A stretch of 64,000 nt of DNA from contig NZ_FOCX01000018.1 of assembly GCF_900110215.1 (NCBI RefSeq), forward strand, positions 1 through 64,000, read 5' to 3'. The notes beneath the pieces are model-generated. The model was not told where the DNA came from. It was given only the letters and a program-made list of their open reading frames with translations, and searched no databases. Source of the DNA: Halorientalis persicus (lineage in GTDB: Archaea > Halobacteriota > Halobacteria > Halobacteriales > Haloarculaceae). The position numbers were made by a program, and so were the translations under genes. How positions within the stretch are numbered: position 1 is the stretch's first letter; every line of letters starts with the position of its first letter. Positions 1,331 through 20,175 of this stretch are shown here, piece after piece.

Positions 1331-2707
1331 CTAGTAATCGCTAATTTTAGATCCTTTGCCAGGATTGATTTTATCCAGGTTTAGACCGTCAAGGCGGGAG
1401 ATTTCGTTGAGAACTTCGACAACGATATCGATCGCGACTTGCAGTTCGAAGTGCCATGCGGGGCCACCGACTGACCCGGCTGCTCGTTTGCGTGCGTCGA
1501 TAATTCCCTGCATGTCGAGTTCCATGAGATGGTCTCGCATTCGCCGCTGGACGAGCTTATCCGCGCCGACCTCGTCGGCAATATTTTGATAGATTGCGTA
1601 GACTGGTTTGGTTCGGACTGGCGTATCTCCTGACTTCTCGAGGACAGTGATTGCGGCAAGTGCCAGCTGTGCCTGCGTTGTCATTTCTCGCATTGCTTCC
1701 GTGACGGTTTCTTTCTCCACCTGAGATTGTGCTTGTCGGACTGTTTCTTCATCTAATTGCTCAATCCCATTCGCATCAGCGATCTCTCCTGCTTTTCTGA
1801 GGTACTTAATCGCCTGCCGAGCATCGCCTTTGTCTTGGGCAGCGAATGCTGATATCAGCGGGATAACATCGGAAGTGAGCACTTCACTCCGGAAGACGTA
1901 CTGCTCGCCACTGCAATCAATCTCAACGACTTCACCTGGATCAGATCCAAATTCGCCGGTATCAATAATCGTGTCGTCCTCAACAGTCACGTCTGCCTCG
2001 TCGACTGGGATCAGTTCTGTGTCCTGGAAGGCCTTTGCAGCTCGGCGGCGAAGGATCTGTTTCAGCTGGATGGCATCGTATGGTGAGAAGAGGATCTGAT
2101 CGTCGTATAGTGAACTCTTGACTTTTGAACTCAGGTTATCTCGCCACTGCAAGTCGTTGCTGATGCCGATGACGCTTGGGTAGACATGATCTCCAACGTA
2201 GTTTTGCGCTCGAGCCCGTGGAAGGCTGTAGAGCAATCTGTCATCGTCACCCAAAGTATCGATCTCGTCTAGAACGATGATGATTGTCCCGCCGACATCG
2301 TTCATCGCCTCGAACATCATATCCATGACGGCGTCTGTGGAGTGACCTGTTGGCCGTTCGTTCCCCGTGAGTTCCATATAAATCCGTGAGGCAGCACGGA
2401 AGCTGGTAGAGAGATCGTGGCTTTCACATGAGATATACAGTGTTGTCAAATCCAGACGGTCTGATTCTTCCTCTGCGTGATATTCAAGTTCGGCAAGCTC
2501 GGTTTTGGCGGCAGCTGTCTTCCCCTGGCCTGCTTTGCCGTAGAGGAATGCATTATTTGCACCGACACCTCGTGCGGCAGGAGAGAGTGCCATGTGCAGA
2601 TTATCTAGTTCATCCTCGCGTTCGGGGAGTTCATCGGGCCGATAGTCTTCCCGGAGAACCTCTTCTTCCTGGAAGATATGAGAGGTGGAAGCATACCGTG
2701 ATGGCAT
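1331..2707 (-). CDS. orc1/cdc6: Orc1/Cdc6 family replication initiator (origin-linked)
   Basis: A 458-residue AAA+ ATPase. Walker A is GKAGQGKT (residues 57-64) and Walker B is IIIVLDEID (near 150). Sensor-2 and lid sequence and a C-terminal winged helix (RRMRDHLMELDMQGIIDARK) follow. Orc1/Cdc6 proteins bind origin recognition boxes and load the MCM helicase. The gene start faces directly into a repeat field with G-strings (2737-4113), the usual arrangement for an archaeal initiator and its own origin. An acidic insert of about 50 residues (near 240-290, rich in D, E and T) in the lid region is unusual; it may be a clade feature. Confidence 0.93.
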   Translation of the reverse strand: MPSRYASTSHIFQEEEVLREDYRPDELPEREDELDNLHMALSPAARGVGANNAFLYGKAGQGKTAAAKTELAELEYHAEEESDRLDLTTLYISCESHDLSTSFRAASRIYMELTGNERPTGHSTDAVMDMMFEAMNDVGGTIIIVLDEIDTLGDDDRLLYSLPRARAQNYVGDHVYPSVIGISNDLQWRDNLSSKVKSSLYDDQILFSPYDAIQLKQILRRRAAKAFQDTELIPVDEADVTVEDDTIIDTGEFGSDPGEVVEIDCSGEQYVFRSEVLTSDVIPLISAFAAQDKGDARQAIKYLRKAGEIADANGIEQLDEETVRQAQSQVEKETVTEAMREMTTQAQLALAAITVLEKSGDTPVRTKPVYAIYQNIADEVGADKLVQRRMRDHLMELDMQGIIDARKRAAGSVGGPAWHFELQVAIDIVVEVLNEISRLDGLNLDKINPGKGSKISDY

Positions 2708-2736
2708 TGACCGGGGATTGTAACCGACGATACATA

Positions 2737-2826
2737 AACCCCCATGTCCGCAATGTCAGTGTTGTCTGGCTTGTCCAGAAATGGACCAACCCAAAACCCA
2801 CCCACACCCCCATGTCTGCAATTTTC
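2737..2826 (-). repeat. Left-arm ORB-like boxes, two copies, reverse orientation
   Basis: Two boxes are seen: ACCCCCATGTCCGCAATG at 2738-2755 and CACACCCCCATGTCTGCAAT at 2803-2822. On the minus strand they read ATTGCRGACATGGGGGT(GTG), the same core as the right-arm boxes but facing the opposite way. They sit 30-120 bp upstream of the orc1 start, so initiator binding could also autoregulate orc1. Confidence 0.8.
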
Positions 2827-2879
2827 TTCGATAGACGGGGAGGGGGTACTACAAGCTGAATCCTCAAGCAACCCTCTAA

Positions 2880-3080
2880 ACACCGTTTACTACAGTCAAT
2901 TGGGTCTCTTCCTCTCTTTTTAGAGATACTGTCGCTCCATCTTTGCAATATAAATAAATACTTTTCTACTAGGTAAGGTAAAGGACAAGGAAAAGCAGCT
3001 TAAACCCTTGTATTCCACCCACTATCAATCTCTTCCATCGCCATTTATAAGTGAAACCCTCTATTTGTATATTTGGTCCC
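2880..3080. other. AT-rich putative DNA unwinding element
   Basis: This stretch lies between the inverted ORB groups and is visibly AT-rich compared with its surroundings, with runs such as GCAATATAAATAAATACTTT at 2944-2963. No open frame of note is present. Its position between oppositely oriented initiator boxes is what is expected for the duplex unwinding element. This is inferred from composition and context only. Confidence 0.6.
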
Positions 3081-3095
3081 GCACTATTCCAGCCA

Positions 3096-3314
3096 ATAAT
3101 TGCGGACACGGGGGTGTGTGGGGGTCCAATACATTAACGTTCGCACCCAGGATACGTATGGACTCTTCAGGAGACGGCACACTGTCGGACGGTTCTCCTA
3201 TGTTTTGACAATCAGGATCTAGTGGAACGGATGTTATCCAGTCTGTCGGGAGTGGTATTGTCAGCTTGAATGTATGCTTCTTCAGACTGGAATTCCAGAC
3301 ATGGGGGTGTGTCC
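3096..3314 (+). repeat. Right-arm ORB-like boxes, first two copies
   Basis: ATAATTGCGGACACGGGGGT starts at 3096 and AATTCCAGACATGGGGGTGT starts at 3291. Both are followed by GTGT and face away from orc1, opposite to the left-arm copies. The second copy has a variant core (TTCCAGACA). Confidence 0.75.
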
Positions 3315-3330
3315 GTCCCACCTAAATCAG

Positions 3331-3660
3331 CGAGGGAGTCCCGCCGTTCACGGCGGGCAGGAATCGCGTAAGCTCCTATAACTACCTGACCCGTCACAGC
3401 CCGGTGATCCGAGGACTTTCTACATCAAGAGTCGAAGCGACTGGTTGCAGAGGCCGTGTCACAGGGCTGTTCGGTGATCGTGTTCGAGGACTTAAACAGA
3501 TACGCGAGCGCATCTCGAACGCCCCGAAATTCCAGCAGTGGGCGTTCCGCGAGTTGAGACGGCAGACCGAATACAAAGCCCGTGCCGAGGGAATTGCCGT
3601 TGAGTCGATTCATCCAGCCAGGAAGCCTCTGGGCTTGACCCCGAGGCGATTCACTGAGGG
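3331..3660 (+). pseudogene. TnpB (IS605-type) relic inserted among origin boxes
   Basis: A perfect hairpin, CCCGCCG-TTCA-CGGCGGG (3340-3357), typical of IS200/IS605 subterminal ends, is followed by degraded TnpB coding sequence. From about 3405 it reads VIVFEDLNRY in one frame. From about 3508 it reads IRERISNAPKFQQWAFRELR, then TEYKARAEGIAVESIHPA, in another. The frame changes mean it is frameshifted, and the zinc-finger part is missing. It looks like an internal remnant of a TnpB element left inside the origin. Confidence 0.75.
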
Positions 3661-3678
3661 CAATAATTCCGCAAACAG

Positions 3679-3991
3679 GAATTGCGGACATGGGGGGTGT
3701 GTCTATTTCACTTTCTCCTGATAAGGGTGTATAATTCTACGGACTGTAATTGCGGACAATGGGGTGTGTCCACCCCGCCTTCTTTCCCATGAGAATGCAT
3801 TATTGCATAGACTGTAATTGCGGACAATGGGGTGTGTCCACCCCGCCTTCTTTCCCATGAGAATACATTATTGCATAGACTGTAATTGCGGACAAAGGGG
3901 TGTGTCCACCCCGCCTTCTTTCCCATGAGAATATATTATTGCACAGACTGTAATTGCGGACAAAGGGGTGTGTCCACCCTAATTCACCGAG
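3679..3991 (+). repeat. 68-bp tandem repeats carrying ORB-like boxes
   Basis: A single box (ATTGCGGACATGGGGGGTGT, from 3681) is followed by an array. The phrase ACTGTAATTGCGGACA recurs at 3743, 3811, 3879 and 3947, exactly 68 bp apart. Each unit has the G-string plus GGGGTG-TGTC-CACCCC, a small hairpin, and then CCTTCTTTCCCATGAGAAT. The last copy is truncated after the hairpin. The copies differ only at a few positions (CAATGGGG against CAAAGGGG), so the amplification looks recent. Iteron-like multiplication of an initiator box fits copy-number or initiation control. Confidence 0.85.
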
Positions 3992-4088
3992 AGAATCCCA
4001 ACCTCCAGACCGGGACATGAATCGCGTATCCGCGGTCATCCCAGTCACCCACGATTTCCCGACTCGACTCCCATAGATATTTTAACAA

Positions 4089-4113
4089 TAATTGCAGACA
4101 TGGGGGTGTGTCT
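4089..4113 (+). repeat. Distal ORB-like box
   Basis: TAATTGCAGACATGGGGGTG followed by TGTCT, in forward orientation like the other right-arm boxes. It is the last copy before the coding region at 4331. Confidence 0.75.
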
Positions 4114-4272
4114 ATACCTGGTGTACACCGCAGGCCCCATGGACATACCGAAAACCATGATGACAAATCGGTCTTTGAATCCCTTGTCTCCAAGCGGTTC
4201 ATTCCTGAACCCGTCTCTGTTCCTGAATCGTTTACTCTGCGCACTCTTCAGCCCGTGGCGGGACGATATCTG

Positions 4273-4314
4273 ATTAACCAACAGACCTATACTCATGGGC
4301 GTTTTGTTGGTTAA
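4273..4314. promoter_or_regulatory. Inverted repeat ATTAACCAACA ... TGTTGGTTAA
   Basis: The arms are at 4273-4283 and 4305-4314, separated by 21 bp, immediately upstream of the ATG at 4331. The same two arms recur at 7145-7184, 12077-12118 and 26397-26440 with 18, 21 and 24 bp between them. Recurrence in front of different genes suggests the operator of one regulator. Confidence 0.55.
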
Positions 4315-4330
4315 CACGAGGCGACTGCCG

Positions 4331-4654
4331 ATGTCATACGAGCCACCGACGCCGGCGGCGGAGCTCCCGACAGAGATCGTCGAAACCCTCAACGGCTACT
4401 CCCCAGATCAGCTCCAACGTATTGCACGCTACGCTGAGGAACTGGCAGAGCACAAAGCTCGCAAAGCCCGCCTCGAGAACGAGCCGGATGAGAACGAGAT
4501 CAACGAACGAACGGACGATCTTCCGGACGATGTCCCGTCGAAGGCGACGATCACAACCAAGGAGATCAACGACAACCGCTACTACTACTGGCAGTGGAGG
4601 GAAGGTGACAAAGTGAAGTCCAAATACAAGGGGCCAGTCAATTCTGACGAGTAG
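4331..4654 (+). CDS. Small acidic haloarchaeal protein, DUF6788-like
   Basis: A 107-residue protein. The N-terminal half is helical and charged (QLQRIARYAEELAEHKARKA). The C-terminal part, ATITTKEINDNRYYYWQWRE followed by GDKVKSKYKGPV, resembles the short domain I know as DUF6788, found on haloarchaeal plasmids; that assignment is from memory. Its function is unknown. The ATG at 4331 is preferred over an upstream ATG at 4295, because the inverted repeat 4273-4314 would then lie upstream of the coding sequence. It is the only plus-strand gene before the polB cluster. Confidence 0.7.
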   Translation: MSYEPPTPAAELPTEIVETLNGYSPDQLQRIARYAEELAEHKARKARLENEPDENEINERTDDLPDDVPSKATITTKEINDNRYYYWQWREGDKVKSKYKGPVNSDE

Positions 4655-4820
4655 GAAGATACCCGAAAGAACGCGTGGTTTGCTGTTGGAGTGGCTCTCC
4701 ATATTCGAAGTGAAAATCCATGTTCCAGACGGCAAGAGTCGGAGACTGACCGATCTTCATATCGAAGGCGCAGGGAGGGAGTGTGACCGCGGACCTCCAT
4801 TGGTATCATTCACTGCTCGG

Positions 4821-6971
4821 TCACTGAAAATCAGTTAGCTCCGGCTCACGTATCCCTGAGAGTTTTTGTTGAATGTCCGTGCGATCCCACCCAAGCGGAG
4901 AGAGGAGACTCTCTATCGCCCGGACGAGTTGCGTCTCGTAATACGACGCATCGTATGACTCGACCTCCTCATGAGCCAATGCGACCCGTTCTCGCGACTG
5001 CTTCTCATCGTCGACGATAACGTACTCGATGTCCTGTCCGGGGTGGACAGCGAGTTCTTGATCACGAGCCCGCTTCAGCGCGGCCACATTCTGCGTATTC
5101 TGCGTGTACCCTTCGAGTGGCTTGGAGACGCGATTTCGTTCGACGAGTTCCTCAACCGGCACCGTTCCAGAGTGAAGCCGCTTGATCGCGTCTTGAAGAC
5201 GGTCGAGTACTGCGTCCGGCGACCGAGTTGCGTCGAATCGCTCGAGACAGTCTCGCTGGACGTCCTTGATGAATCGTGGGGTTGAGCGCTGCCGAGCTTC
5301 TATACCGCGTATCTTGAACTCATCTTCGCCGGCGACCTTTCCAAAGTACTTCGTCAGCGCGCCGGCGTCGCTCTCGCGTTGCGGGACGAACGCCACCCAG
5401 TCGTAGTGGGCCTCGTGTTCCAGGCGGATTTCGATGCGTTCCGTAATCTCCGTCGCGAGCGTCTCGAGGTCCTCGCGGTCGTCGCTCTCAACCTCAGGGT
5501 CTGGTGTGACCCAGATCGAATCGACGATCCCGTGGACGACGCGCCAGCCGCCGGCTTCCAGCCGCTGTTTTGCCGTCAGCAGAATTTCACGAGCGAATGC
5601 GTTGATCGCCTCGTGGCACTCGATGCGTCCAAACTTTGCGTTGCTGAACCCCTGATACCCGAAGCAGGCGACGAGAATCCACTTCAGCGCTCCCGACCGT
5701 CCTTCGAGTTCTGTAAGCCGTTCCTCGTCAGGATTCGTGCGCTGTTGTTCGCGACGGATGGCTGCCTTGATCTCGTCGCGAGCGTCGATGATGGGCTGGA
5801 GGACGTCGACCAGGTAGCCGCGGTCGTCGCAGATAGAGTACCCGAGCCCGGGGACGTCGTCGCGGTCGCTGTGGCAGTCACACCGGATAACGTCGGGCGA
5901 GACGTTCCGGGTACAGATGATGTTCGGATACAGGCTCGAAAAGTCGAGTTCGTGGACGTTCTCGTGGACGCCGACTTCGGGCGCAAAGATGAACCCGCCA
6001 CGGTCGGCGTCGTGGAGTGTGCCCATCGGCTTGTAGAACTCGTGGCGCCAGGAATTCCACGGGACGAGGACGTCGCGGTCGTGGGCCTCACAGATCTGGA
6101 TCGCCGTAAGGACGTTCCCGATCGATGCCCACGCAAGCTCCTGGACCGGTTTCTTCGAGCGCGACACGAGATCGAGGACGCCATCGAGGTTCGTCTCCCC
6201 ATAGAAGAACGTGTTTGACTCGTCGATGATTGCCCGGCCGGGCACGTTGTAGCGCGCTGGTGAGTGGCCGACGCGACCGTAGCTCGAGTACGTCGACTGA
6301 CTTGCGAGCTGTTGGTAGCCCACGTCGGGCCACCGACTCAGCGTGAAGCCGTCGATGCCGGCGGTCGTCGCCATCTCATATAGCGTCGGGATGATTTCGC
6401 TCGTCGAGCAGACGAGGACGTCCGGCTTGTGTGCTTCGAGCGCTGCTTGGACGGCGGTCAGAATATCTGTCGGCGAGCCGGTGACGGTGTCGCCGGCGAC
6501 GGACAGCTCCCCATAGACGTCGTTGCTCGTTTCGGTCACCGGGACGCTGAGCCGGAGCGTCGACAGCTCGCTCGCCGGCGTCGGATCGACGCCGGTCTCC
6601 AGACAGTACCGAAACTCTCGCGAGAAGTCGACGTTGAAACAGGCGAGATCCCCGACTGGATATGCGGACAACTGGCGCGCCTGCTGAGCGAGTGAGGTGA
6701 CCCGGTCGATGTGTTCGACATCGACGGCGAGGACTGGCTTCTCTTCACGACGAAATCCGGGGCGTTGCGTCACCATCTCGGTCGTGACGACGTCCGGGTG
6801 CCGGTCGTAGACTGCCCGGAGGGCCTCGAGATCGACATCTACGTCAGATGCACGAGGAGCCACGTAGAAGCGGGGCGTGTAGACGTCGCGCTCGGTCACG
6901 ATGGCACCGTCACTGGTTGCCTCCCATTCGAGTACACGGCCGTCGTCGAGGAAGTCGATCGTGAATGACAT
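4821..6971 (-). CDS. polB2: Family B DNA polymerase, PolB2-like with altered catalytic motifs
   Basis: The open frame encodes 724 residues from 6995. The ATG at 6969-6971 (MSFTIDFLDDGRVLEWE) matches the usual start. Motif A is intact (HELDFSSLYPN, near 348-358). Motif B is a variant (LKWILVACFGYQGFSNAKFG, near 437-456). Motif C reads HGIVDSIWV (near 488-496), so the first Asp of the canonical DTD triad is replaced. No exonuclease I, II or III motifs are visible in the N-terminal half. This fits the partly inactivated archaeal PolB2 group, which in other archaea is damage-inducible and implicated in translesion synthesis. Nearby genes supply a separate exonuclease and a RecA-like protein. Shared promoter motifs (7028-7132) point to co-regulation with them. 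Confidence 0.88.
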   Translation of the reverse strand: MSFTIDFLDDGRVLEWEATSDGAIVTERDVYTPRFYVAPRASDVDVDLEALRAVYDRHPDVVTTEMVTQRPGFRREEKPVLAVDVEHIDRVTSLAQQARQLSAYPVGDLACFNVDFSREFRYCLETGVDPTPASELSTLRLSVPVTETSNDVYGELSVAGDTVTGSPTDILTAVQAALEAHKPDVLVCSTSEIIPTLYEMATTAGIDGFTLSRWPDVGYQQLASQSTYSSYGRVGHSPARYNVPGRAIIDESNTFFYGETNLDGVLDLVSRSKKPVQELAWASIGNVLTAIQICEAHDRDVLVPWNSWRHEFYKPMGTLHDADRGGFIFAPEVGVHENVHELDFSSLYPNIICTRNVSPDVIRCDCHSDRDDVPGLGYSICDDRGYLVDVLQPIIDARDEIKAAIRREQQRTNPDEERLTELEGRSGALKWILVACFGYQGFSNAKFGRIECHEAINAFAREILLTAKQRLEAGGWRVVHGIVDSIWVTPDPEVESDDREDLETLATEITERIEIRLEHEAHYDWVAFVPQRESDAGALTKYFGKVAGEDEFKIRGIEARQRSTPRFIKDVQRDCLERFDATRSPDAVLDRLQDAIKRLHSGTVPVEELVERNRVSKPLEGYTQNTQNVAALKRARDQELAVHPGQDIEYVIVDDEKQSRERVALAHEEVESYDASYYETQLVRAIESLLSPLGWDRTDIQQKLSGIREPELTDFQ

Positions 6972-7027
6972 CCGTTGGTTACAGTCCTCCAACAATGTAC
7001 AGAACAGTCGAGTCGCTGATTACTTCT

Positions 7028-7132
7028 GGCGTGTCGCTTCCGGATTTCAGGAATGAGTAACAAGGACTCTCTTACCGCTGTATTCCGACTTTTTAGCCAA
7101 TTATTGGCTGTTTCCGGAATGCTTTCCAGAAT
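7028..7132. promoter_or_regulatory. Upstream motif block of polB (TTTCC..GGAA palindromes)
   Basis: Box A, GGCGTGTCGCTTCCGGATTT followed by CAGGAAT, is at 7028-7054. Box B, GGCTGTTTCCGGAAT, starts at 7106, with a second TTTCCAGAAT 12 bp further on. The same two boxes in the same order and nearly the same spacing (78 against 80 bp) lie upstream of the RecA-like operon at 10213-10319. This is a duplicated regulatory region, best explained as shared operators. Confidence 0.7.
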
Positions 7133-7144
7133 TCCCAAACCAGC

Positions 7145-7184
7145 GATAACCAACAATCTCCAACTATCCCCGATGTTGGTTAAT
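7145..7184. promoter_or_regulatory. Inverted repeat GATAACCAACA ... TGTTGGTTAATA
   Basis: The arms lie at 7145-7155 and 7174-7184 with an 18-bp spacer. The site is in the same intergenic region as the TTTCCGGAA boxes, upstream of polB. It belongs to the repeat group also found upstream of the SRAP gene and at 4273 and 12077. Confidence 0.55.
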
Positions 7185-7255
7185 AGGTAGCGATCACTAC
7201 CGATCTCTGCTGCTGATCAGCAACAAACCCGACTTGCTCGACGAACACACTTGCT

Positions 7256-7822
7256 TCACCGGGTCGCATCGAGATACTGCTGGCGCAACTGGGCCACATA
7301 CTGTGCATCCCAACCTTTGGTCTCAACATAGTAGGTGAGCACAGCATCGACGTATTCCCCGGGTAAGATTTCGTGGGCCGCGAGCGTGCAGAGGATGTGT
7401 GGTGTCGTGAAGAGCGTATTTCGGTCGTCGAGTGCAAGATTGATGAATAGATAGTTGGTCGTATTGAATTCGTCCGTGATGATGAGGTCCGCCTCCAAGT
7501 CGTTGGCCAGCCAGATGCAGTCGGATTCCCCGCGATCAAGCCCGTAGTCAAGGGGCTCGTCAGTCCGGTCATTGACATCGTGGGTCGTGAGCTGGTGGGC
7601 GGCCTGAAGGACGAGATCGGCAGCTACAGCTAGGAGGTCATCGCCCCCTGTTGCATCGGTGACTTCGCCGAGGACGCTCGCAGGTGTGTGGACATCGTAC
7701 GCGGTGAGGAGGGCTTTGAGTGGGTCCGCACCGGAGGGTGCCTGCGAACGTCCGTCAACAACTGGTGTCGCGAGATTCAACAGTACGTTCGTATCAACAA
7801 CGGCGACTGCCTGCTCCGACAT
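7256..7822 (-). CDS. PIN-domain ribonuclease toxin (VapC-like)
   Basis: A 188-residue PIN-fold protein with acidic active-site blocks VVDTNVLLNL (D10), GESDCIWLAND (near 105) and DLIITDEFNTTNY (near 120). PIN toxins cleave RNA, and VapC types are held in check by a cognate antitoxin. It starts 2 bp after the stop of the ribbon-helix-helix gene at 7825-8223, the usual antitoxin-toxin order. It lies between polB and the exonuclease gene, so it may act as an addiction element of this cluster. RNase activity is inferred from the family. Confidence 0.85.
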   Translation of the reverse strand: MSEQAVAVVDTNVLLNLATPVVDGRSQAPSGADPLKALLTAYDVHTPASVLGEVTDATGGDDLLAVAADLVLQAAHQLTTHDVNDRTDEPLDYGLDRGESDCIWLANDLEADLIITDEFNTTNYLFINLALDDRNTLFTTPHILCTLAAHEILPGEYVDAVLTYYVETKGWDAQYVAQLRQQYLDATR

Positions 7823-7824
7823 TG

Positions 7825-8223
7825 TCAGAGGTGGGACTCATCGTCCGACGATTCGGACGAATTCGAGTCCGTCCATTCGGAGATCTCGTCGTCGTAGAAC
7901 GCTTCATCACTCGGAAGGTCGTCCTCAAGTTGGGGCTCGGCAGGTGTCCTGTCTATCGATTCCCGGAGGAGTTTCAATCGCATCGCCTCCTGACGACCGA
8001 GGATTGCTTCGACGGTCTCGTAGTCGACGTGATCGTCGTAGTAGGCGTCGCTCAGCCGCCGTCGGAACTCGTCGTCAGTTGCCAGATCCTCGAGCTCGTC
8101 CTCCAGAGCGTCAATGAGGAGCCGGGTCCGCGAGATATCGAGGATTTCAACGACGCTGTCAGCACGTTCGACGAGGGATTTTGGAGCATTGAAATCGACG
8201 CGGGTTTTCTCGTCGGCCATCAC
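7825..8223 (-). CDS. RHH-type antitoxin partner of the PIN protein
   Basis: A 132-residue protein. The N-terminus (TRVDFNAPKSLVERADSVVE, then ISRTRLLIDALEDELEDL) looks like a ribbon-helix-helix DNA-binding domain. A long acidic C-terminal tail (EWTDSNSSESSDDESHL) probably neutralises the PIN partner. Its start, with ATGs at 8223 and 8220, lies a few bases from a perfect 9-bp inverted repeat (8226-8246), as expected for an autoregulated antitoxin operon. Whether it shares a transcript with the exonuclease operon upstream is unclear, since only 40 bp separate them. Confidence 0.75.
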   Translation of the reverse strand: MMADEKTRVDFNAPKSLVERADSVVEILDISRTRLLIDALEDELEDLATDDEFRRRLSDAYYDDHVDYETVEAILGRQEAMRLKLLRESIDRTPAEPQLEDDLPSDEAFYDDEISEWTDSNSSESSDDESHL

Positions 8224-8225
8224 TC

Positions 8226-8246
8226 TATGTGTAGGGTCTACACATA
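8226..8246. promoter_or_regulatory. Perfect inverted repeat, likely RHH operator
   Basis: TATGTGTAG-GGT-CTACACATA: a 9-bp perfect palindrome with a 3-bp spacer, directly upstream of the antitoxin start. Its position and symmetry fit a dimeric RHH repressor. Confidence 0.65.
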
Positions 8247-8263
8247 CTTAGTTCACTCGCCGA

Positions 8264-8911
8264 TCAGGCGATCGACTCGAGGGATTTCATCGAGAAGTCG
8301 GACTTCGAACAGTACCGTTCCGCGAGATCCATCAACGCTCGCGTCCGCCGAATATCTGCGACATTGTGGGTGAGGAGCGGTTCGAATGCTCCGTCCTGCC
8401 ACGTCGTGACTGCTGCTTCGCTGTCCGTGAATGGGTCGAGATCGTTCAACCCGTGGCCAATCAGTTCCTCATAGACACCACAGAGTGTGTTTTCAGACGT
8501 GTTGAATCGCTTCTCGAAGACATCCATCACATCCACGTAGGGAAGACTCCCGAACGGCCAGTCGATGGCGTGCGTGCACAATCTGGTCCGCAGGAACGGG
8601 AGGTCGAACCCGCCGGACCACCGCTCGCCGTTGTATGCGACGAGTTTCGCGTCACGCTGGGTGAGTGTCGACGTCACGAACACGGACATCTCGTGCAGAA
8701 GCTCCTGCTCACTACCGTGAACCGAGAGTCGGACCGGTGCATTCAGGTTCCCGTTGAGCCGCTCTTCGAGGTCGTCAGAAGGCATTCCGCCATCCGTATT
8801 GAGGAACATACGTGAGGCGACCGTGGAGTCGAAGCCGATGACCGTGAGTTGGTCGGCTGTCTCGAAGCCGGTCGTTTCGATGTCGAACGCCACTGTAGAG
8901 AGGTCCGTCAT
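8264..8911 (-). CDS. DEDD-family 3'-5' exonuclease (RNase H-like)
   Basis: A 215-residue protein with the DnaQ/PolB-type exonuclease motifs: VAFDIETTGF (D10, E12), KLVAYNGERWSGGFDLPFLR (Exo II, near 92-111) and LLTHNVADIRRTRALM (Exo III, near 180-195). These residues bind two metals for 3'-5' hydrolysis. Its start overlaps the 3' end of the small gene upstream by 4 bp, so it is translated in the same operon as the RecA-like protein. Because the neighbouring PolB lacks visible exonuclease motifs, a stand-alone proofreading or end-trimming role is plausible; that is inference. Confidence 0.85.
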   Translation of the reverse strand: MTDLSTVAFDIETTGFETADQLTVIGFDSTVASRMFLNTDGGMPSDDLEERLNGNLNAPVRLSVHGSEQELLHEMSVFVTSTLTQRDAKLVAYNGERWSGGFDLPFLRTRLCTHAIDWPFGSLPYVDVMDVFEKRFNTSENTLCGVYEELIGHGLNDLDPFTDSEAAVTTWQDGAFEPLLTHNVADIRRTRALMDLAERYCSKSDFSMKSLESIA

Positions 8912-9228
8912 GTGTCGCCTCCAGTGTCCTCCTCTGGGGCTGTTGCTGACTGCTGTGTGTCGTGTTGTGCTATGGCCTGTTCAAGCTCAGCGAGTCGCTC
9001 TTCGTGTTCGTCGAGACGGGCCTCCTGTTCGAGATCGATACTGAACAACGCCGGCAGCAGCGGGTTCTGATGATTCAGCAGGCCGCTGGCGTCGGCGTGC
9101 TCGCGAGCGTACTCGAAGAGCCGATCGAAGTGGGGCTGATCACGACGGCGAAGCGCACGCCGGAAATCCGCCCAGCGCTCTTCGATAGCCCGCAGCGCAT
9201 CTCGATACGTTGGATTCGTGCGCCCCAT
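8908..9228 (-). CDS. Small coiled-coil protein of the RecA-like/exonuclease operon
   Basis: A 106-residue protein starting at the ATG 9226-9228 (MGRTNPTYRDALRAIEERWA). The N-terminus is basic and helical (FRRALRRRDQPHFDRLFEYA). The C-terminus forms a coiled coil (EARLDEHEERLAELEQAIAQ) with a disordered tail. I do not recognise a named family. It sits between the RecA-like gene (2-bp gap) and the exonuclease gene (4-bp overlap), so a structural or bridging role in one complex is the natural guess. Confidence 0.75.
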   Translation of the reverse strand: MGRTNPTYRDALRAIEERWADFRRALRRRDQPHFDRLFEYAREHADASGLLNHQNPLLPALFSIDLEQEARLDEHEERLAELEQAIAQHDTQQSATAPEEDTGGDT

Positions 9229-9230
9229 CG

Positions 9231-10178
9231 CTATCGCCCTCCAGTGCCAGGTGCTGTCCACGCATCGAGCAGGGGATCCGCAGTGACCGACACCGTCTCG
9301 CCGTCAGCTGTGACGCCCGTCCCGACACCCTCCGGGGTCGGCGTCGACGGCGCCGGCGTCGTCGGTTCCATGCCGACCTGTGTGGCGCGTGCCGCGAGCA
9401 GCTGCCGCCAGTACGCGAACGTCGTCTGGTAGTACGCGCCGTCGTCGACGGGATAGACGAGCGTCTCGAACTCGTCGCCGACGAAACGTGGCCCCATTCG
9501 CGTTTGCTCGCATTTCAGGTGGTGGCTGGCTGCCGTCGCAACCGGTTCGGTGAATTCGTTACGTTCGTTTCGCGTAACGAGCACCGGGATGTCGTACCCA
9601 TCGGCGTAGGTCGCCAACCGAGCGAGTGTTCGGGCCTGAAGGGTCTGGGACTGCACCTCGCCAAGGGTATCATCCGTACGATACTGGGCATCGACGTCCG
9701 GCACGACGATGAGCGAAGGGGTGTGTAGTGATCCATCGCCCTGACCCGTGGGCTGTCGCCTTCTCGAGTTGTCGTCGGCTGTCGATTCCCGGATCGACTG
9801 ATTGACCGCTCCCGTGAGATCGCACACAGCACCGTAGTGCTGGTAAGCGGTGAAGCCGCGTGTAACGTGGATCCGGTCGAGTAAGCGCTGGCTGGGAGCG
9901 ATCTGTGCGAGTGAGGTTGTCGTCGCGTGGCCGTTTGCGTCCACCCAGAACGCGGGCCCATCGTGCAGGAGGAGATGGTCAAGCACGAGCGACTGAAGGA
10001 CCGGGACTCCACGGCCACCGTCTACGTCAAGCAGCGTGATCCCGTCATCAAGTGATGGGAGCAACATCCCCTCGCTGGCTGGGTCGGCCTGTGTTGTAAG
10101 GGACCGATTTTGATCCGCACTCCGTGTCGGTTGATCCACTGCCAACCGGTCTGATGTCGATCTTGAGTGATCGGGCAT
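9231..10178 (-). CDS. RecA/RadA-like protein with degraded ATP-binding site
   Basis: A 315-residue protein. The core follows the RecA/RadA pattern: GITLLDVDGGRGVPVLQSLV where Walker A should be, without the GK[ST] residues; HVTRGFTAYQHYGAV; LIVVPDVDAQYR at the Walker B place; and DIPVLVTRNERNEF. The N- and C-terminal tails are disordered. An inactivated recombinase paralogue beside an altered polymerase recalls the bacterial ImuA-ImuB-DnaE2 mutasome, where ImuA is RecA-like. The gene heads an operon of RecA-like, coiled-coil and DEDD exonuclease genes. Its promoter region is homologous to that of polB. Confidence 0.75.
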   Translation of the reverse strand: MPDHSRSTSDRLAVDQPTRSADQNRSLTTQADPASEGMLLPSLDDGITLLDVDGGRGVPVLQSLVLDHLLLHDGPAFWVDANGHATTTSLAQIAPSQRLLDRIHVTRGFTAYQHYGAVCDLTGAVNQSIRESTADDNSRRRQPTGQGDGSLHTPSLIVVPDVDAQYRTDDTLGEVQSQTLQARTLARLATYADGYDIPVLVTRNERNEFTEPVATAASHHLKCEQTRMGPRFVGDEFETLVYPVDDGAYYQTTFAYWRQLLAARATQVGMEPTTPAPSTPTPEGVGTGVTADGETVSVTADPLLDAWTAPGTGGR

Positions 10179-10212
10179 AGTTACCTAGATACCCACATCC
10201 CGAATAAGCCGC

Positions 10213-10319
10213 GGCGTGTCGTTTCCGCGTTTCATGGAAAGGAGGCCTCAGCTAATAATCTGGACTCAGTCACGGGATTTCTGCGTGAGTTGGGCTGTTT
10301 CCGAGAAGGTTTCCGGAAT
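10213..10319. promoter_or_regulatory. Upstream motif block of the RecA-like operon
   Basis: Box A is GGCGTGTCGTTTCCGCGTTT followed by CATGGAAA (10213-10240). Box B is GGCTGTTTCCGAGAA from 10293, then TTTCCGGAAT (10310-10319), with the second half-motif again 12 bp after the first. It matches the polB upstream block at 7028-7132 in order, spacing and sequence. Box A lies about 35 bp upstream of the start codon. Confidence 0.7.
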
Positions 10320-10355
10320 CTCTCGCTGGACTACTCAATCGATGATATGCCAAAG

Positions 10356-10430
10356 AGAGGATGCTGAATACAGGGCGCTTAGTCAGCATTGAGAAATTAC
10401 TGAGCTTGGACTACACTAAGTGCTCAATAC
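10356..10430. repeat. Degenerate dispersed intergenic repeat, copy 1
   Basis: TGCTGAATACAGGGCGCTTA, then GTCAGCATTGAGAAAT, begins here. A reverse-oriented relative is at 32766-32835 (GCGCCCTGTATTCAGCA), with more distant ones at 38996-39032 and 39676-39745. The rest of 10320-10637 has no gene; TTTTATA at 10607-10613 may be the promoter of the next gene. Confidence 0.5.
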
Positions 10431-10637
10431 AGAGTGCGAATGTAGCAATCACACTAGGACCAGTTCGGTTGTAGTGTTCAATGTGGATTTGACTGTACCC
10501 GCTGTGACAAGTGTGGAATATTAGTTCAGAATTTAAACGTCGAAAAGCACCGCTCACCTGTGTTATTACATCCCCATTGTGGTTTTTTAACCAAATTGAA
10601 ATGAATGTTTTATACTTCCCTCATGATGTCGCCAGAC

Positions 10638-11684
10638 ATGAACCGAAGAGAGTTTCTTCAGACAAGTGCCGGTGGCATTGGTGGGATAGCACTATCTGTA
10701 GTACCTGTTCATGGTCAACAGGATACAGATCCGAACCCAAAAGTAGTCTCACAATTTGCACCTCCCAAACCAAATGCGAGGGGGATTACATTTGACGGCG
10801 AAAGCCTGTGGGTCGGTCACGAAAAAGACAATGGCGACCTTATTTATGAACTTGGGACTGATGGCCGAATCAAGCAGTCGTTCTCATTCCCTGGCGACGA
10901 TACGATGCCGGACATCTACGGCATCACAGCGATGAACGATCACCTTTTTGCTGTCGGTGATGAGTTTATTCTGCACGAAAGCCGCCAGCCTGTCTTGTAC
11001 AAAATCACCAAACAAGGTGAGCGAGTGACCCGATACGAAACCAGTGGGTCGTTTGGCTATCAGGGAATAGCTAACGATGGCACCCGACTTTTCGTGAGTA
11101 AAGGAGAACAGATTGTCCGGGTTTTGACCACCGCTGCAAACCAGTATCGGAGTATTGGTGTTCCTCAGGAATTTCAGGGGCTCTGTTACGATGGCACCGA
11201 CTTCTGGGGTACTGCAAATGCCAATATCTTCAGGTTTACGTCAGACGGAACTGTTAAACAGCGGTTTAGCTATCCAGCTGACTACGGAATCGGTATTGCG
11301 CACGATGGCCGCTATCTCTACATGATTGATAAGGATCAGAATCGAATTTTCAAGCTTGACCCAGATGTTGCTGGTGGGAACACCGAAGCCGGTCCGTCGA
11401 CCCAGCAACCCGACAGCGATGGTGACGGCATTTCAGATTCTCAGGATGAGAATCCGCAGAAACCATCGACGGCTCGGTCACATCGCACAGAGCAAGATAG
11501 CGACGGAGATGGCGTCCCTGACTCAGATGACTATGCGCCCGACGACCCAGAAGTCCAAGCTAAATCTGATCTTGAAGAAAGTGGTTCAAGTGGCATCGGA
11601 CCTGGATTCGGTCCTTTTTCAGCCCTCGCTGCACTCGGGGGTGCCTCTGCATACTTCTTGAAGAAACGGATGACAGACGAATAA
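10638..11684 (+). CDS. Tat-exported beta-propeller-like protein with PGF-CTERM anchor
   Basis: A 348-residue protein from the ATG at 10638. The N-terminus (MNRREFLQTSAGGIGGIALS) is a twin-arginine signal. The middle shows repeated blades of the pattern GITFDGESLWVG, GIANDGTRLFVS, GLCYDGTDFWGT and GIAHDGRYLYMI, suggesting a propeller. Two calcium-binding thrombospondin-3-like repeats follow (DSDGDGISDSQDENP, DSDGDGVPDSDDYAPDD). The C-terminus (PGFGPFSALAALGGASAYFL plus KKR) is a PGF-CTERM-type archaeosortase signal. It should be an extracellular, lipid-anchored protein; its ligand is unknown. Codon use is less GC-biased than in the polB cluster. Confidence 0.85.
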   Translation: MNRREFLQTSAGGIGGIALSVVPVHGQQDTDPNPKVVSQFAPPKPNARGITFDGESLWVGHEKDNGDLIYELGTDGRIKQSFSFPGDDTMPDIYGITAMNDHLFAVGDEFILHESRQPVLYKITKQGERVTRYETSGSFGYQGIANDGTRLFVSKGEQIVRVLTTAANQYRSIGVPQEFQGLCYDGTDFWGTANANIFRFTSDGTVKQRFSYPADYGIGIAHDGRYLYMIDKDQNRIFKLDPDVAGGNTEAGPSTQQPDSDGDGISDSQDENPQKPSTARSHRTEQDSDGDGVPDSDDYAPDDPEVQAKSDLEESGSSGIGPGFGPFSALAALGGASAYFLKKRMTDE

Positions 11685-11883: not shown

Positions 11884-12456
11884 GGATGAAAACGGTGAAC
11901 GATAAGCAGGTTTACTGAGCGGGCCAGTTCAGCATGAAGTGAGTGAAATAACCCAATTGTCGCTGCTGTATACATTCTCTCCATTCAGCAACTCTCATCT
12001 GGTAGATACTGAGCAACTCACCCCTTGGACTGTCCCAGTACTCGCCAGCACTCCCAGAAGCCCAGCAACACTCTGGCTTAACCAACACAACCACCGGTCC
12101 CTGCCGTGTGTTGGTTAAATGGGTGAGCCCATGGGTAGCAGATGCCCCGACCGCACCGCACGCTCGATGAAACCTGCAACAGCGGGGTGAGCGTGTGATG
12201 GACGACGTGGATCGCGATGTCGTCGAACGTAGCTCCCCCAAGCGTATACGCGGGCGATCCAGCCAGCCAATCGCGAGCCTATCCACCATCCAGCGTTGGT
12301 AGAGTTAGCGCCGAACCCGAAGGTTCACTGAGTTTCCTAACTGCGGGGCATGGTGCTGCCCGTACGTCTCCGAGACCACGACTGTTGAGTGCCCTCGCCA
12401 TAGCTTCCATTCAGAGCGGGTGCTGTATAGAGAGCATATCCGTCATAGAGAGTCCG
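11884..12456. other. Gene-poor stretch between the small membrane gene and the formyltransferase-like gene
   Basis: No gene can be supported here. The minus frame from about 12270 to 12130 reads AGSPAYTLGGATFDDIAIHV, then VHHTLTPLLQV, which looks protein-like and may be a relic. I do not recognise it. The stretch contains the inverted repeat at 12077-12118. Confidence 0.4.
12077..12118. promoter_or_regulatory. Inverted repeat CTTAACCAACA ... TGTTGGTTAA, orphan copy
   Basis: The arms are at 12077-12087 and 12109-12118 with a 21-bp spacer, the same geometry as at 4273. No convincing gene follows on either side, so it may mark the promoter of a gene that has been lost. Confidence 0.5.
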
Positions 12457-17838: not shown

Positions 17839-17940
17839 TTTCCGGAAATTTCCGGAAATCCTGGATTTCCGCATACAAAATCGCATGATGGCGGCACAGT
17901 GGATCGCGGTCTACAGGTGCAACCATGCCATTTCCGGAAA
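17839..17940. promoter_or_regulatory. Three TTTCCGGAAA palindromes upstream of orc1-CBASS
   Basis: Two perfect 10-bp palindromes stand side by side at 17839-17848 and 17849-17858, and a third is at 17931-17940. The last is 50 bp upstream of the ATG at 17990 and just before a TATA-like TTTTTATTA (17953-17961). The same core occurs in the polB and RecA-like promoter blocks. I saw no further intergenic copies. Confidence 0.7.
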
Positions 17941-17989
17941 TGACCCGGTTACGTTTTTATTACTTGCCGGTAAAACCAGTCAGTTACAG

Positions 17990-19018
17990 ATGATCCGCGA
18001 TGCTCGTGTCCTCCGTGCTGGCTTCGTCCCTCGAGAAGTCGAGCATCGCGACGCCGAAGTCAACCACCTTTCAACCGTCCTCGAACCCATCACCAACGAA
18101 GAACCCGCAGATACCGCTATCGTCACCGGGCCCAGCGGGACCGGCAAAACGTGTATCTCGCAGTTCGTCACCGAGCGCCTTCGCGAAGAGGTCCTCGGCG
18201 TCGAAGCCACCTACGTCAACTGCTGGCGCAACTACACTCGATTCCGAACGCTCTACCAGATCCTCGACGATCTCGGTGCAACCATCGACATCCACCGCCA
18301 ATCCACGCCCCACGACGAACTCGTCGACCGCCTCCAGCAATACGACGGCCCGCGAACCGTCATCATCCTTGACGAGGTCGACCAGCTCGAAGACCCAAGC
18401 GTCCTTTACGACCTCCACAGCCTCTCGCAGTTCGCAATCATCTGCATCGCCAACAAGGAAGAGGAATTGTTCAGCCGTGTCGACGACCGTCTCGTGAGTC
18501 GACTCCGTTCGAGTGAACACGTCCAAATGGACAAGTACCACGACGAGCAGCTGTACGACATCCTGAGTGCTCGGGCTAAGTGGGGGCTCGACGAAGACGT
18601 CATCACCAACGACCACCTTTACCGAATCGCCGATGCGGCCGCCGGTGACGCCCGCCTCGCAATCGGCATCCTCCGAACGGCCGCCGGCAAGGCCAACCGC
18701 GAGAACCACGAGCGCATCACCGACGACATCCTCCTGGACGCCGCCGAGGACGCCCGGGCCCAGATCAAGCAGAAGAGCATCGATTCACTCACGCCACACC
18801 AGCGCGTCGTCTACGACATCGTTCGTGAGCACGGCCCGCTCGGCCCGAGCGAGATTCACGACCACTATACGGACGAGGTAGACGATCCCCGGACGAAACG
18901 GACAGTCCGGTCCTATCTCTCGAAGATGGCTCAGTACAACCTCCTCGAGGCCAAGGGCACGAGCCGGGATCGAGAATACGCGATCATTGAGTCACCGCCT
19001 GCTGCAACAACCACTTAA
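17990..19018 (+). CDS. orc1/cdc6: Orc1/Cdc6-like AAA+ ATPase heading the CBASS operon
   Basis: A 342-residue protein from the ATG at 17990 (MIRDARVLRAGFVPREVEHR); upstream codons of the longer frame overlap the promoter. Walker A is GPSGTGKT (47-54) and Walker B is TVIILDEVDQL (near 122-132). The lid reads IADAAAGDARLAIGILRTAA, and a C-terminal winged helix follows. It belongs to the short haloarchaeal Orc1 paralogues, which need not be origin initiators. Only 24 bp separate its stop from the CD-NTase start, and no ORB-like repeats are adjacent. It may therefore serve the defence operon or simply mark an insertion site. Scars of another orc1 C-terminus lie downstream at 23775 and 25560. Confidence 0.9.
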   Translation: MIRDARVLRAGFVPREVEHRDAEVNHLSTVLEPITNEEPADTAIVTGPSGTGKTCISQFVTERLREEVLGVEATYVNCWRNYTRFRTLYQILDDLGATIDIHRQSTPHDELVDRLQQYDGPRTVIILDEVDQLEDPSVLYDLHSLSQFAIICIANKEEELFSRVDDRLVSRLRSSEHVQMDKYHDEQLYDILSARAKWGLDEDVITNDHLYRIADAAAGDARLAIGILRTAAGKANRENHERITDDILLDAAEDARAQIKQKSIDSLTPHQRVVYDIVREHGPLGPSEIHDHYTDEVDDPRTKRTVRSYLSKMAQYNLLEAKGTSRDREYAIIESPPAATTT

Positions 19019-19042
19019 AACATTCCAGAACATCGATACACT

Positions 19043-20167
19043 ATGACCACACTCCCCACACTGTTCGAGACCTTCCTGTCAGACATCCGCCCGCAGGACG
19101 AGCACAATGATGCCTACAAGGAGGGCCACGAAACCCTCCGCGACCACTTGCAGAATGACGATGACATCGACGATTTCTACGTTTCAGACTTTCTACAGGG
19201 GAGCTACCGTCGGTGGACGGCACTCAGACCGCAAGAAGACGAGAAATCCGACGTTGACGTCGTCTTTGTCTCTGATCTCAGCAGTGATCTCGATACCGAT
19301 GTTGCGCTAAGAAAATGCGAGCCGTTCCTGGATGAACACTATGAGGGGCAGTGGGAACCGAATGCCCACTCCTACAAAATCGAGGAAGAGGAGGTGGAGA
19401 TCGATCTCGTCTTGACAGCGGCACCGAGCGAGGCAACACGAGAAGCCGTCAAATCACTGGGTTCACTGGACGTAGGCACAGCCCTGACTCCGGACGACCT
19501 TTCGACCGTGGCGGAGGCCCTCAATATGTCGGCAGATGGCGACGACGAGTGGAAGGACGAACCGCTCAAGATCCCACATCGAGATGAAAACGAGTGGGAG
19601 AATACCCATCCCCTCGCGACTATCGCCTTCACCGTAAATAAGAACGATATCACGGATGGCCACTACGTGAACGTCGTCAAAGCCATCAAATGGTGGCGGC
19701 GAACGAAGACACCCGACGTCGAAGGACCGACAAGCTATCCCCTCGAGCACATCGTTGGTCAGTGCTGTCCAGATGATATCGACAGCGTCGCTGAAGGCGT
19801 GACAAGGACGCTCGAAGAACTTACACGGCAGTTCAAGACCGAAGCAATGGCCGAGGAAACCCCCGTCTTGCCGGCTCACGGGCTCCCGGAAACCCCCGAG
19901 AATGACGTCCTCAAACAAATCGACGGGGACGATTTCGCGGCGTTCTACGATGAGGCCGAGGATGCCGCCGCGCTCGCGCGGACAGCACTGGATGAGGAGG
20001 ACAAAGAAACATCGAGGGATTACTGGTACCAGCTCTTCGGCGAGAAATTCCCTCCATTCGGAAGCGACGACGATTCTGACGATGGAGGGGAGAAAGCCAT
20101 GTCAGTAGGGTCGTCCTCACAGGTAGAGGATCCATCTGATCACCAGTTCGCCGAGTCGGACAGCTGA
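19043..20167 (+). CDS. CBASS CD-NTase (cyclic oligonucleotide synthase)
   Basis: A 374-residue nucleotidyltransferase. The active-site signature is FLQGSYRRWTALRP (G53-S54) followed by SDVDVVFVSDL (D70, D72), with the third acidic residue in EVEIDLVLTAAP (D122). These are the cGAS/DncV-like residues that bind metal and make cyclic di- or trinucleotides upon phage infection. The long acidic C-terminus ends HQFAESDS; in type II CBASS the synthase C-terminus is the site ligated by Cap2. It is followed after 8 bp by the E2-E1-JAB gene. The product nucleotide cannot be told from sequence. Confidence 0.9.
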   Translation: MTTLPTLFETFLSDIRPQDEHNDAYKEGHETLRDHLQNDDDIDDFYVSDFLQGSYRRWTALRPQEDEKSDVDVVFVSDLSSDLDTDVALRKCEPFLDEHYEGQWEPNAHSYKIEEEEVEIDLVLTAAPSEATREAVKSLGSLDVGTALTPDDLSTVAEALNMSADGDDEWKDEPLKIPHRDENEWENTHPLATIAFTVNKNDITDGHYVNVVKAIKWWRRTKTPDVEGPTSYPLEHIVGQCCPDDIDSVAEGVTRTLEELTRQFKTEAMAEETPVLPAHGLPETPENDVLKQIDGDDFAAFYDEAEDAAALARTALDEEDKETSRDYWYQLFGEKFPPFGSDDDSDDGGEKAMSVGSSSQVEDPSDHQFAESDS

Positions 20168-20175
20168 CGTTACAA

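Follow-up and report, generated by a model that had tools for sequence, protein, structure and literature searches.

The window analysed here, a stretch of 64,000 nucleotides of Halorientalis persicus (contig NZ_FOCX01000018.1), contains at positions 4821-10319 a plasmid-borne copy of the known PolB2 mutasome operon in a salt-loving archaeon; the genes for the B-family DNA polymerase PolB2, the inactivated RadA homolog iRadA and the small protein PPB2 are accompanied by a gene for a putative free-standing 3'-5' exonuclease. Because the PolB2-iRadA-PPB2 mutasome has already been published, the operon in its core adds a further member to an established system; the apparent novelty lies in the separately encoded, optional exonuclease of predicted PolB type, its kinship with the nuclease of HRAMP cassettes, and a shared promoter element. 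In the interpretation that we favour, with a probability of about 0.55, the operon encodes a damage-regulated translesion complex in which an optional exonuclease of the PolB type would proofread in trans.

The operon and its mutasome core

Six genes on the minus strand are transcribed in the order iRadA, PPB2, exonuclease, RHH, PIN and PolB2 (Table 1). The start codon region of the exonuclease overlaps the stop of PPB2 by 4 bp, and the stretch also covers promoter elements at 10212-10239 and about 10297-10319. A preliminary description of this DNA had noticed an altered PolB, a RecA-like protein without P-loop lysine, a DEDD exonuclease with all motifs, a coiled-coil protein and an RHH/PIN pair between them, and had proposed a mutasome-like set. 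All of these components lie there, on the minus strand; the coiled-coil protein is PPB2, and the NF004418 match of the polymerase, the iRadA fold and the MGRT start of PPB2 bear out the proposal, for a system that was already known.

PolB2 matches NCBIfam NF004418 with 1422 bits. The Pfam DNA_pol_B match begins only at residue 330, and the protein is alignable to solved PolB structures only from about residue 250, beyond the exonuclease domain; no solved polymerase matched the residues before that point. Across 77 PolB2 sequences DFSSLYP is retained as motif A and K..L.ACFGYQGF as motif B, and HGIVDS stands at motif C with few exceptions, which indicates a conserved change and not a lesion. 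The protein is a B-family polymerase in which the first Asp of motif C is replaced and the exonuclease motifs are absent.

The P-loop pattern GK[ST], with the Walker A lysine, is absent from iRadA in 20 of 20 relatives. The sequence link to RadA is weak (Rad51 profile, E 0.029), and a model with a mean pLDDT of only 66 has its best matches among RadA/Rad51 proteins (Foldseek E 3.3e-11), which points to an ATPase-inactivated RadA homolog in the same operon. It had been suggested that a separate subunit supplies a recombinase-like function; this is doubtful, given that iRadA lacks an ATPase site and that published models treat it as a structural partner. The PPB2 ATG lies at MGRT, 11 codons inside a longer open reading frame, so that the window protein opens with MGRTNPTYRDAL; nearly all PPB2 relatives begin in the same way, and N-terminal MGRT is given as the PPB2 hallmark in PMC11791011.

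Makarova 2014 linked PolB2, inactivated RadA and arCOG07300, with orc and lexA neighbours (PMC4104785), and Timinskas 2025 modelled PolB2, iRadA and PPB2 as a heteropentameric PolB2 mutasome, PolB2-iRadA-PPB2(3) (PMC11791011). The window shares with this system the three proteins and their order, the motif C change, the missing P-loop, the MGRT start and a nearby orc1/cdc6 gene; Orc1/Cdc6 genes are found near almost all related loci, and the neighbour at 1331..2707 is usual for them. It differs by the added exonuclease gene, by the RHH/PIN insert and by a further promoter element ahead of PolB2; the parts of PMC4104785 and PMC11791011 that were consulted mention none of the three.

A survey of 293 genomes of the order, in which 60 regions and then 40 more were annotated with profiles, yielded 74 distinct plasmid-type iRadA operons. 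Since the identical order recurs in dozens of genomes, the linkage of the genes is far beyond chance.

Table 1. Features of the operon and its surroundings in the window, and exonuclease arrangements in other mutasome loci
Feature	Position	Strand	Remarks
GGAAAC boxes (ATTCCGGAAACCTTCTCGGAAAC)	10297..10319	minus	iRadA promoter; conserved in 74 aligned iRadA upstream regions
Operator-like element (TTCCATGAAACGCGGAAACGACACGCCG)	10212..10239	minus	before iRadA; 43.4 bits with weight matrix
iRadA gene	9231..10178	minus	RadA/Rad51-fold protein without Walker A lysine
PPB2 gene	8908..9228	minus	arCOG07300-type small helical protein; true start at MGRTNPTYRDAL
Exonuclease gene	8264..8911	minus	putative free-standing DEDD 3'-5' exonuclease, predicted B-family-polymerase proofreading type
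RHH-type protein gene	7825..8223	minus	probable antitoxin; insert outside mutasome
PIN-type protein gene	7256..7822	minus	probable toxin; insert outside mutasome
Inverted repeat TTAACCAACA-N17-TGTTGGTTA	7147..7183	minus	upstream of PolB2
Second operator-like element (ATTCCTGAAATCCGGAAGCGACACGCC)	7027..7054	minus	before PolB2; 33.3 bits with weight matrix
PolB2 gene	4821..6971	minus	B-family polymerase, motif C HGIVDS, exonuclease domain missing
Orc1/Cdc6-family protein gene	1331..2707	minus	TIGR02928, E 2e-106
L185			iRadA-EXO-PPB2-PolB2; distant exonuclease relative
L209			ORC-iRadA-PPB2-PolB2-EXO; exonuclease directly behind PolB2
L189, L190			exonuclease divergent from ORC-iRadA-PPB2-PolB2

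Residues, predicted fold and selection of the exonuclease

Without exception, the 33 exonuclease sequences compared have D10, E12, D103, H182 and D186, five residues that belong to a DEDD active site. By its sequence the protein belongs to the broad RNase_H_2 family (PF13482), with E 1.6e-8 for the window protein and matches for all 33 relatives; 11 of the 33, though not the window protein, also match DNA_pol_B_exo1 (PF03104) at E up to 0.01. An AlphaFold model (pLDDT 89, pTM 0.88) finds archaeal PolB and Pol epsilon in Foldseek with E about 1e-8. With VIA-align the model superposes on residues 281-509 of yeast Pol epsilon (Z 20.5, 191 aligned residues of 215, 2.4 A) and on E. coli Pol II and archaeal PolB (Z 18-19), and all 50 top structure matches are exonuclease domains of B-family polymerases, at Z 18-20.5. 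A sequence profile search against solved structures gave a marginal polymerase match (E 0.63), and the fold claim therefore depends on the model.

As modelled, the fold matches the module that PolB2 has lost. Residues and fold match together support the earlier proposal that the exonuclease missing from PolB2 is supplied by a separate gene of the operon. The likeness to the proofreading domains of Pol epsilon, Pol II and KOD (PF03104) consists in this predicted fold and in the DIE and N...FD motifs; the window protein differs from them in being encoded by a free-standing gene, in having His for Tyr in motif III, and in a sequence nearer PF13482. Among clade members the exonuclease has dN/dS values of 0.08-0.19, which means purifying selection. 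A phage origin was dropped, as the comparison with a phage collection gave zero matches.

Distribution of the exonuclease and relation to HRAMP

A relative of the exonuclease was found in 79 of the 293 genomes. It is carried by 25 of the 74 plasmid-type iRadA operons; its start almost invariably overlaps the stop codon of PPB2, and nearly all copies lie 302-320 bp after iRadA (in L046 an insert separates iRadA from PPB2). Two of these 25 operons are contiguous with PolB2, and in the rest the polymerase is about 1 to 30 kb apart. That the four genes with the exonuclease are the haloarchaeal standard, as the preliminary description had assumed, is thus not supported, the gene being present in 25 of the 74 operons and patchy on the tree; for the same count we rejected it as an obligate subunit of the mutasome.

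A further scan covered named genomes, a set that shares some members with the first, and gave 79 exonuclease loci. Within clade I, 32 of 33 exonucleases stand directly behind PPB2; the other 46, more distant, include 27 in the CRISPR-derived HRAMP cassettes of haloarchaea and four in differently arranged mutasome operons (Table 1). The cassettes comprise an HTH gene, a Cys-rich protein, Cas7-like (assigned by eye) and Cmr3/Cas5-like (Cmr3 match, E 7e-5) RAMP proteins, an uncharacterised protein, the exonuclease and an HNH protein. They resemble the window in that a related exonuclease (about 45-50% identical) lies behind the Cas5-like gene, also with an overlap of a few bases, and differ in having RAMP proteins and an HNH nuclease, not a polymerase. 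No Cas5-like or Cas7-like proteins were found among the genes around the window exonuclease. In several genomes (L074, L076, L077, L078) a 675-aa protein which we take to resemble BrxL adjoins the cassette. The cassette composition agrees with HRAMP as summarised in PMC8730458 and PMC12669027.

The exonuclease tree gives good support both to clade I and to the HRAMP groups, and it places the remaining mutasome members on separate branches. The family either joined mutasomes several times, or originated there and passed to HRAMP. Solitary relatives occur near an Orc1/Cdc6-like gene, on plasmid or chromosome, in L040, L042, L082, L084, L216-L218, L220 and L227, and GGAA boxes are found upstream of some of them. 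A 3.4-kb contig labelled as a Clostridia metagenome-assembled genome (L176) bears a haloarchaeal iRadA-PPB2-exonuclease unit and is most likely mis-binned.

The RHH/PIN insert and recombination at the locus

The preliminary description had counted the RHH/PIN pair as part of the set. About 30 genomes encode a PIN relative (63-86% identity), which in almost every instance lies away from PolB2; RHH is found alone between exonuclease and PolB2 in several loci, its relatives also belong to unlinked RHH-PIN pairs, and adjacent RHH-PIN pairs recur in L092, L093, L094 and L102. Since the relatives are mostly unlinked to PolB2, we rejected the pair as a mutasome component. Neither protein has a significant Pfam match and their names come from motifs and context, from which the pair is best read as a mobile passenger module of the toxin-antitoxin kind.

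Insertions are concentrated in the gap that follows PPB2 or the exonuclease, a hot spot where they measure 0-30 kb; in several loci this gap holds fragments of a second PPB2, of the exonuclease or of the PolB2 N-terminus. Pieces of a second PPB2 and exonuclease lie between exonuclease and PolB2 at L038:10902-11437, L051:8999-9250, L052:7564-7740 and L044:4519-5028, and detached N-terminal pieces of PolB2 in L104, L107 and L131; in the 0.7-kb gaps of L095, L132 and L134 no exonuclease remnants were found. The PPB2 and exonuclease fragments are remains of recombination between operons. In Halobacterium NRC-1 (pNRC200, L044), polB2 is accompanied only by PPB2 and exonuclease fragments and iRadA is absent within 7 kb; the NRC-1 polB2 knock-out may therefore have tested an incomplete mutasome.

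A promoter element before iRadA and PolB2

The 74 aligned iRadA upstream regions share a conserved block, TTCCcTGAAAcgcGGAAgcgMCACGCCGCGGCTTAT, which ends about 25 bp before the start codon; in the window a TATA-like CTTAT follows the TTCCATGAAACGCGGAAACGACACGCCG element about 25 bp ahead of the iRadA start codon. The core of the element is present in 62 of the 74 operons, and its exact pattern occurs once in the window against 0.15 expected. A weight matrix of 35.6 bits, used with a threshold of 11 bits (top score on shuffled sequence, 10.5 bits), recovers the element 71 times ahead of iRadA and 27 times ahead of PolB2. The copy before PolB2 is a property of split operons (23 of 28), as opposed to contiguous ones (0 of 38; Fisher P 3e-13, the operons not being independent); L058 was counted as lacking it by the automatic rule, yet a 30-bit match sits at its PolB2 start. 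Selection seems to keep PolB2 under common control after insertions.

Besides the window operon, the H. persicus genome contains a second plasmid mutasome operon (L087) and a chromosomal orc-iRadA-PPB2-PolB2 operon. A relaxed pattern has five matches in the whole 4.87 Mb genome, with none for the reversed control: four lie at mutasome operons, namely the two window copies and one at each of the other two operons, and the fifth (C67), inside a long reading frame, was discarded as chance. From this distribution, the element marks a small regulon of mutasome genes. A solitary exonuclease in H. tiamatea retains an element about 370 bp upstream.

A palindrome, TTAACCAACA-N17-20-TGTTGGTTA, occurs at three places of the window (4274-4314, 7147-7183 and 12078-12118; 0 expected), in most iRadA promoters, and at about 14 places of the genome, on a few contigs that are probably plasmids, often in intergenic DNA or right behind stop codons. 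It may be a dispersed plasmid site, an operator or a terminator.

Proposed function and alternatives

PolB2 is the main mutagenic polymerase of Sulfolobus and is thought to act without proofreading. The Sulfolobus enzyme (Dpo2) is active, has no exonuclease activity and extends mispaired and lesion-opposite ends (PMC8764526); it is damage-inducible and required for damage-induced mutagenesis (PMC7390963), and Orc1-2 activates it and is required for its induction (PMC9738581).

In the interpretation that we favour, iRadA, PPB2 and PolB2 would form the known translesion complex, in which iRadA would hold PolB2 via a Rad51-like contact, the MGRT arm of PPB2 would be inserted beside the active site, and PolB2 would extend mismatched or lesion-terminated primers. 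The exonuclease would most likely trim mispaired 3' ends where PolB2 synthesises, either as editing in trans or as a reset of the primer before the replicative polymerase returns. Transcription would begin at the conserved element ahead of iRadA; the RHH/PIN insert would have displaced PolB2, which hence would use its own copy of the element, both halves remaining one regulon, which probably responds to damage and whose regulator may be an Orc1/Cdc6-family protein.

More tentatively, and at somewhat less than even odds, the complex, after the loss of its integral proofreading domain, may have acquired an exonuclease of that type again, now as a separate and optional subunit. This subunit would have been drawn on more than one occasion from a family that a CRISPR-derived defence system also uses, and haloarchaea would thereby have edited, damage-induced mutagenesis that is tunable within one small regulon.

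Several observations weigh against a role of the exonuclease beside the polymerase. About two thirds of the plasmid-type operons are without it, including the second copy in the same genome (L087), and on the iRadA tree its presence requires 17 changes, compared with 21 for shuffled labels, so that the gene is patchily distributed and gained and lost easily; on these grounds it is not an essential subunit. It is mostly accompanied by an insertion between PPB2 and PolB2, and its linkage could therefore be to the iRadA-PPB2 unit or to the insert and not to the polymerase. As members of the family are present in HRAMP cassettes and beside solitary ORC genes, the family is not polymerase-specific. 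Moreover, motif III reads HxxxD where PolB domains usually have YxxxD (DEDDy), and the text of the published ultraviolet arrays of Halobacterium NRC-1 reports no polB2.

Among the alternatives, the one that survives best, possible but clearly less probable, is an ordinary PolB2 mutasome on a recombining plasmid, with the exonuclease as a cargo nuclease for defence or plasmid maintenance that gained the promoter regulation without working with the polymerase. The occurrence of the family in HRAMP and ORC-adjacent loci, its patchy presence, and the 0-30 kb inserts with PPB2, exonuclease and PolB2 fragments, signs of repeated recombination at the locus, speak for cargo; however, the place behind PPB2 and the overlap of 4 bp stay constant among inserts that otherwise differ, relatives have taken other positions in other mutasome operons, the gene is under purifying selection, and its predicted fold is exactly the module lost by PolB2.

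We consider it improbable that the exonuclease works with iRadA and PPB2 on ends or stalled forks, as resection or end trimming before recombination, and not in PolB2 proofreading. It does stand beside iRadA-PPB2 even when PolB2 is up to 30 kb off or not found nearby, but PolB2 retains the same promoter element in split operons, and in L209 the exonuclease is directly behind PolB2.

That the four genes belong together with RHH/PIN as a single conserved unit, functionally equivalent to ImuA-ImuB-DnaE2, is very improbable: the general architecture of a polymerase, a RecA-like protein and a small subunit agrees, but no Y-family ImuB or C-family DnaE2 homologs were found among the genes at 1331-11684, RHH/PIN is not conserved and the exonuclease is in one third of the operons, so that the survey disfavours it. 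What stands of the comparison made by the preliminary description is a functional analogy: E. coli Pol V and ImuA-ImuB-DnaE2 likewise combine a RecA-type partner and a small subunit with a translesion polymerase, of families that differ from PolB2, and we know of no separate exonuclease in these sets.

If the proofreader of haloarchaeal PolB2 is detachable, naturally occurring operon pairs that differ in the exonuclease, such as the two in one genome here, would allow testing whether and how editing limits damage-induced mutation, and PolB2 synthesis regarded as "error-prone" may be edited by a separate subunit. To our knowledge there is no known regulator of the haloarchaeal DNA-damage regulon, on which the conserved promoter element offers a handle. 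The link between a putative polymerase accessory nuclease and HRAMP bears on the source of nucleases in CRISPR-derived systems.

Other observations

Immediately upstream of iRadA, Halobacterium hubeiense (L038:6018-7463) has a metallophosphatase-RNase_H_2 fusion of 481 aa together with an SOS response-associated peptidase. Elsewhere in the window, on the plus strand at 17885-22512, genes for a SMODS nucleotidyltransferase and a ThiF-JAB protein come after one for an Orc1/Cdc6-like protein, an arrangement that looks like a CBASS-type defence operon with an Orc-like gene at its head.

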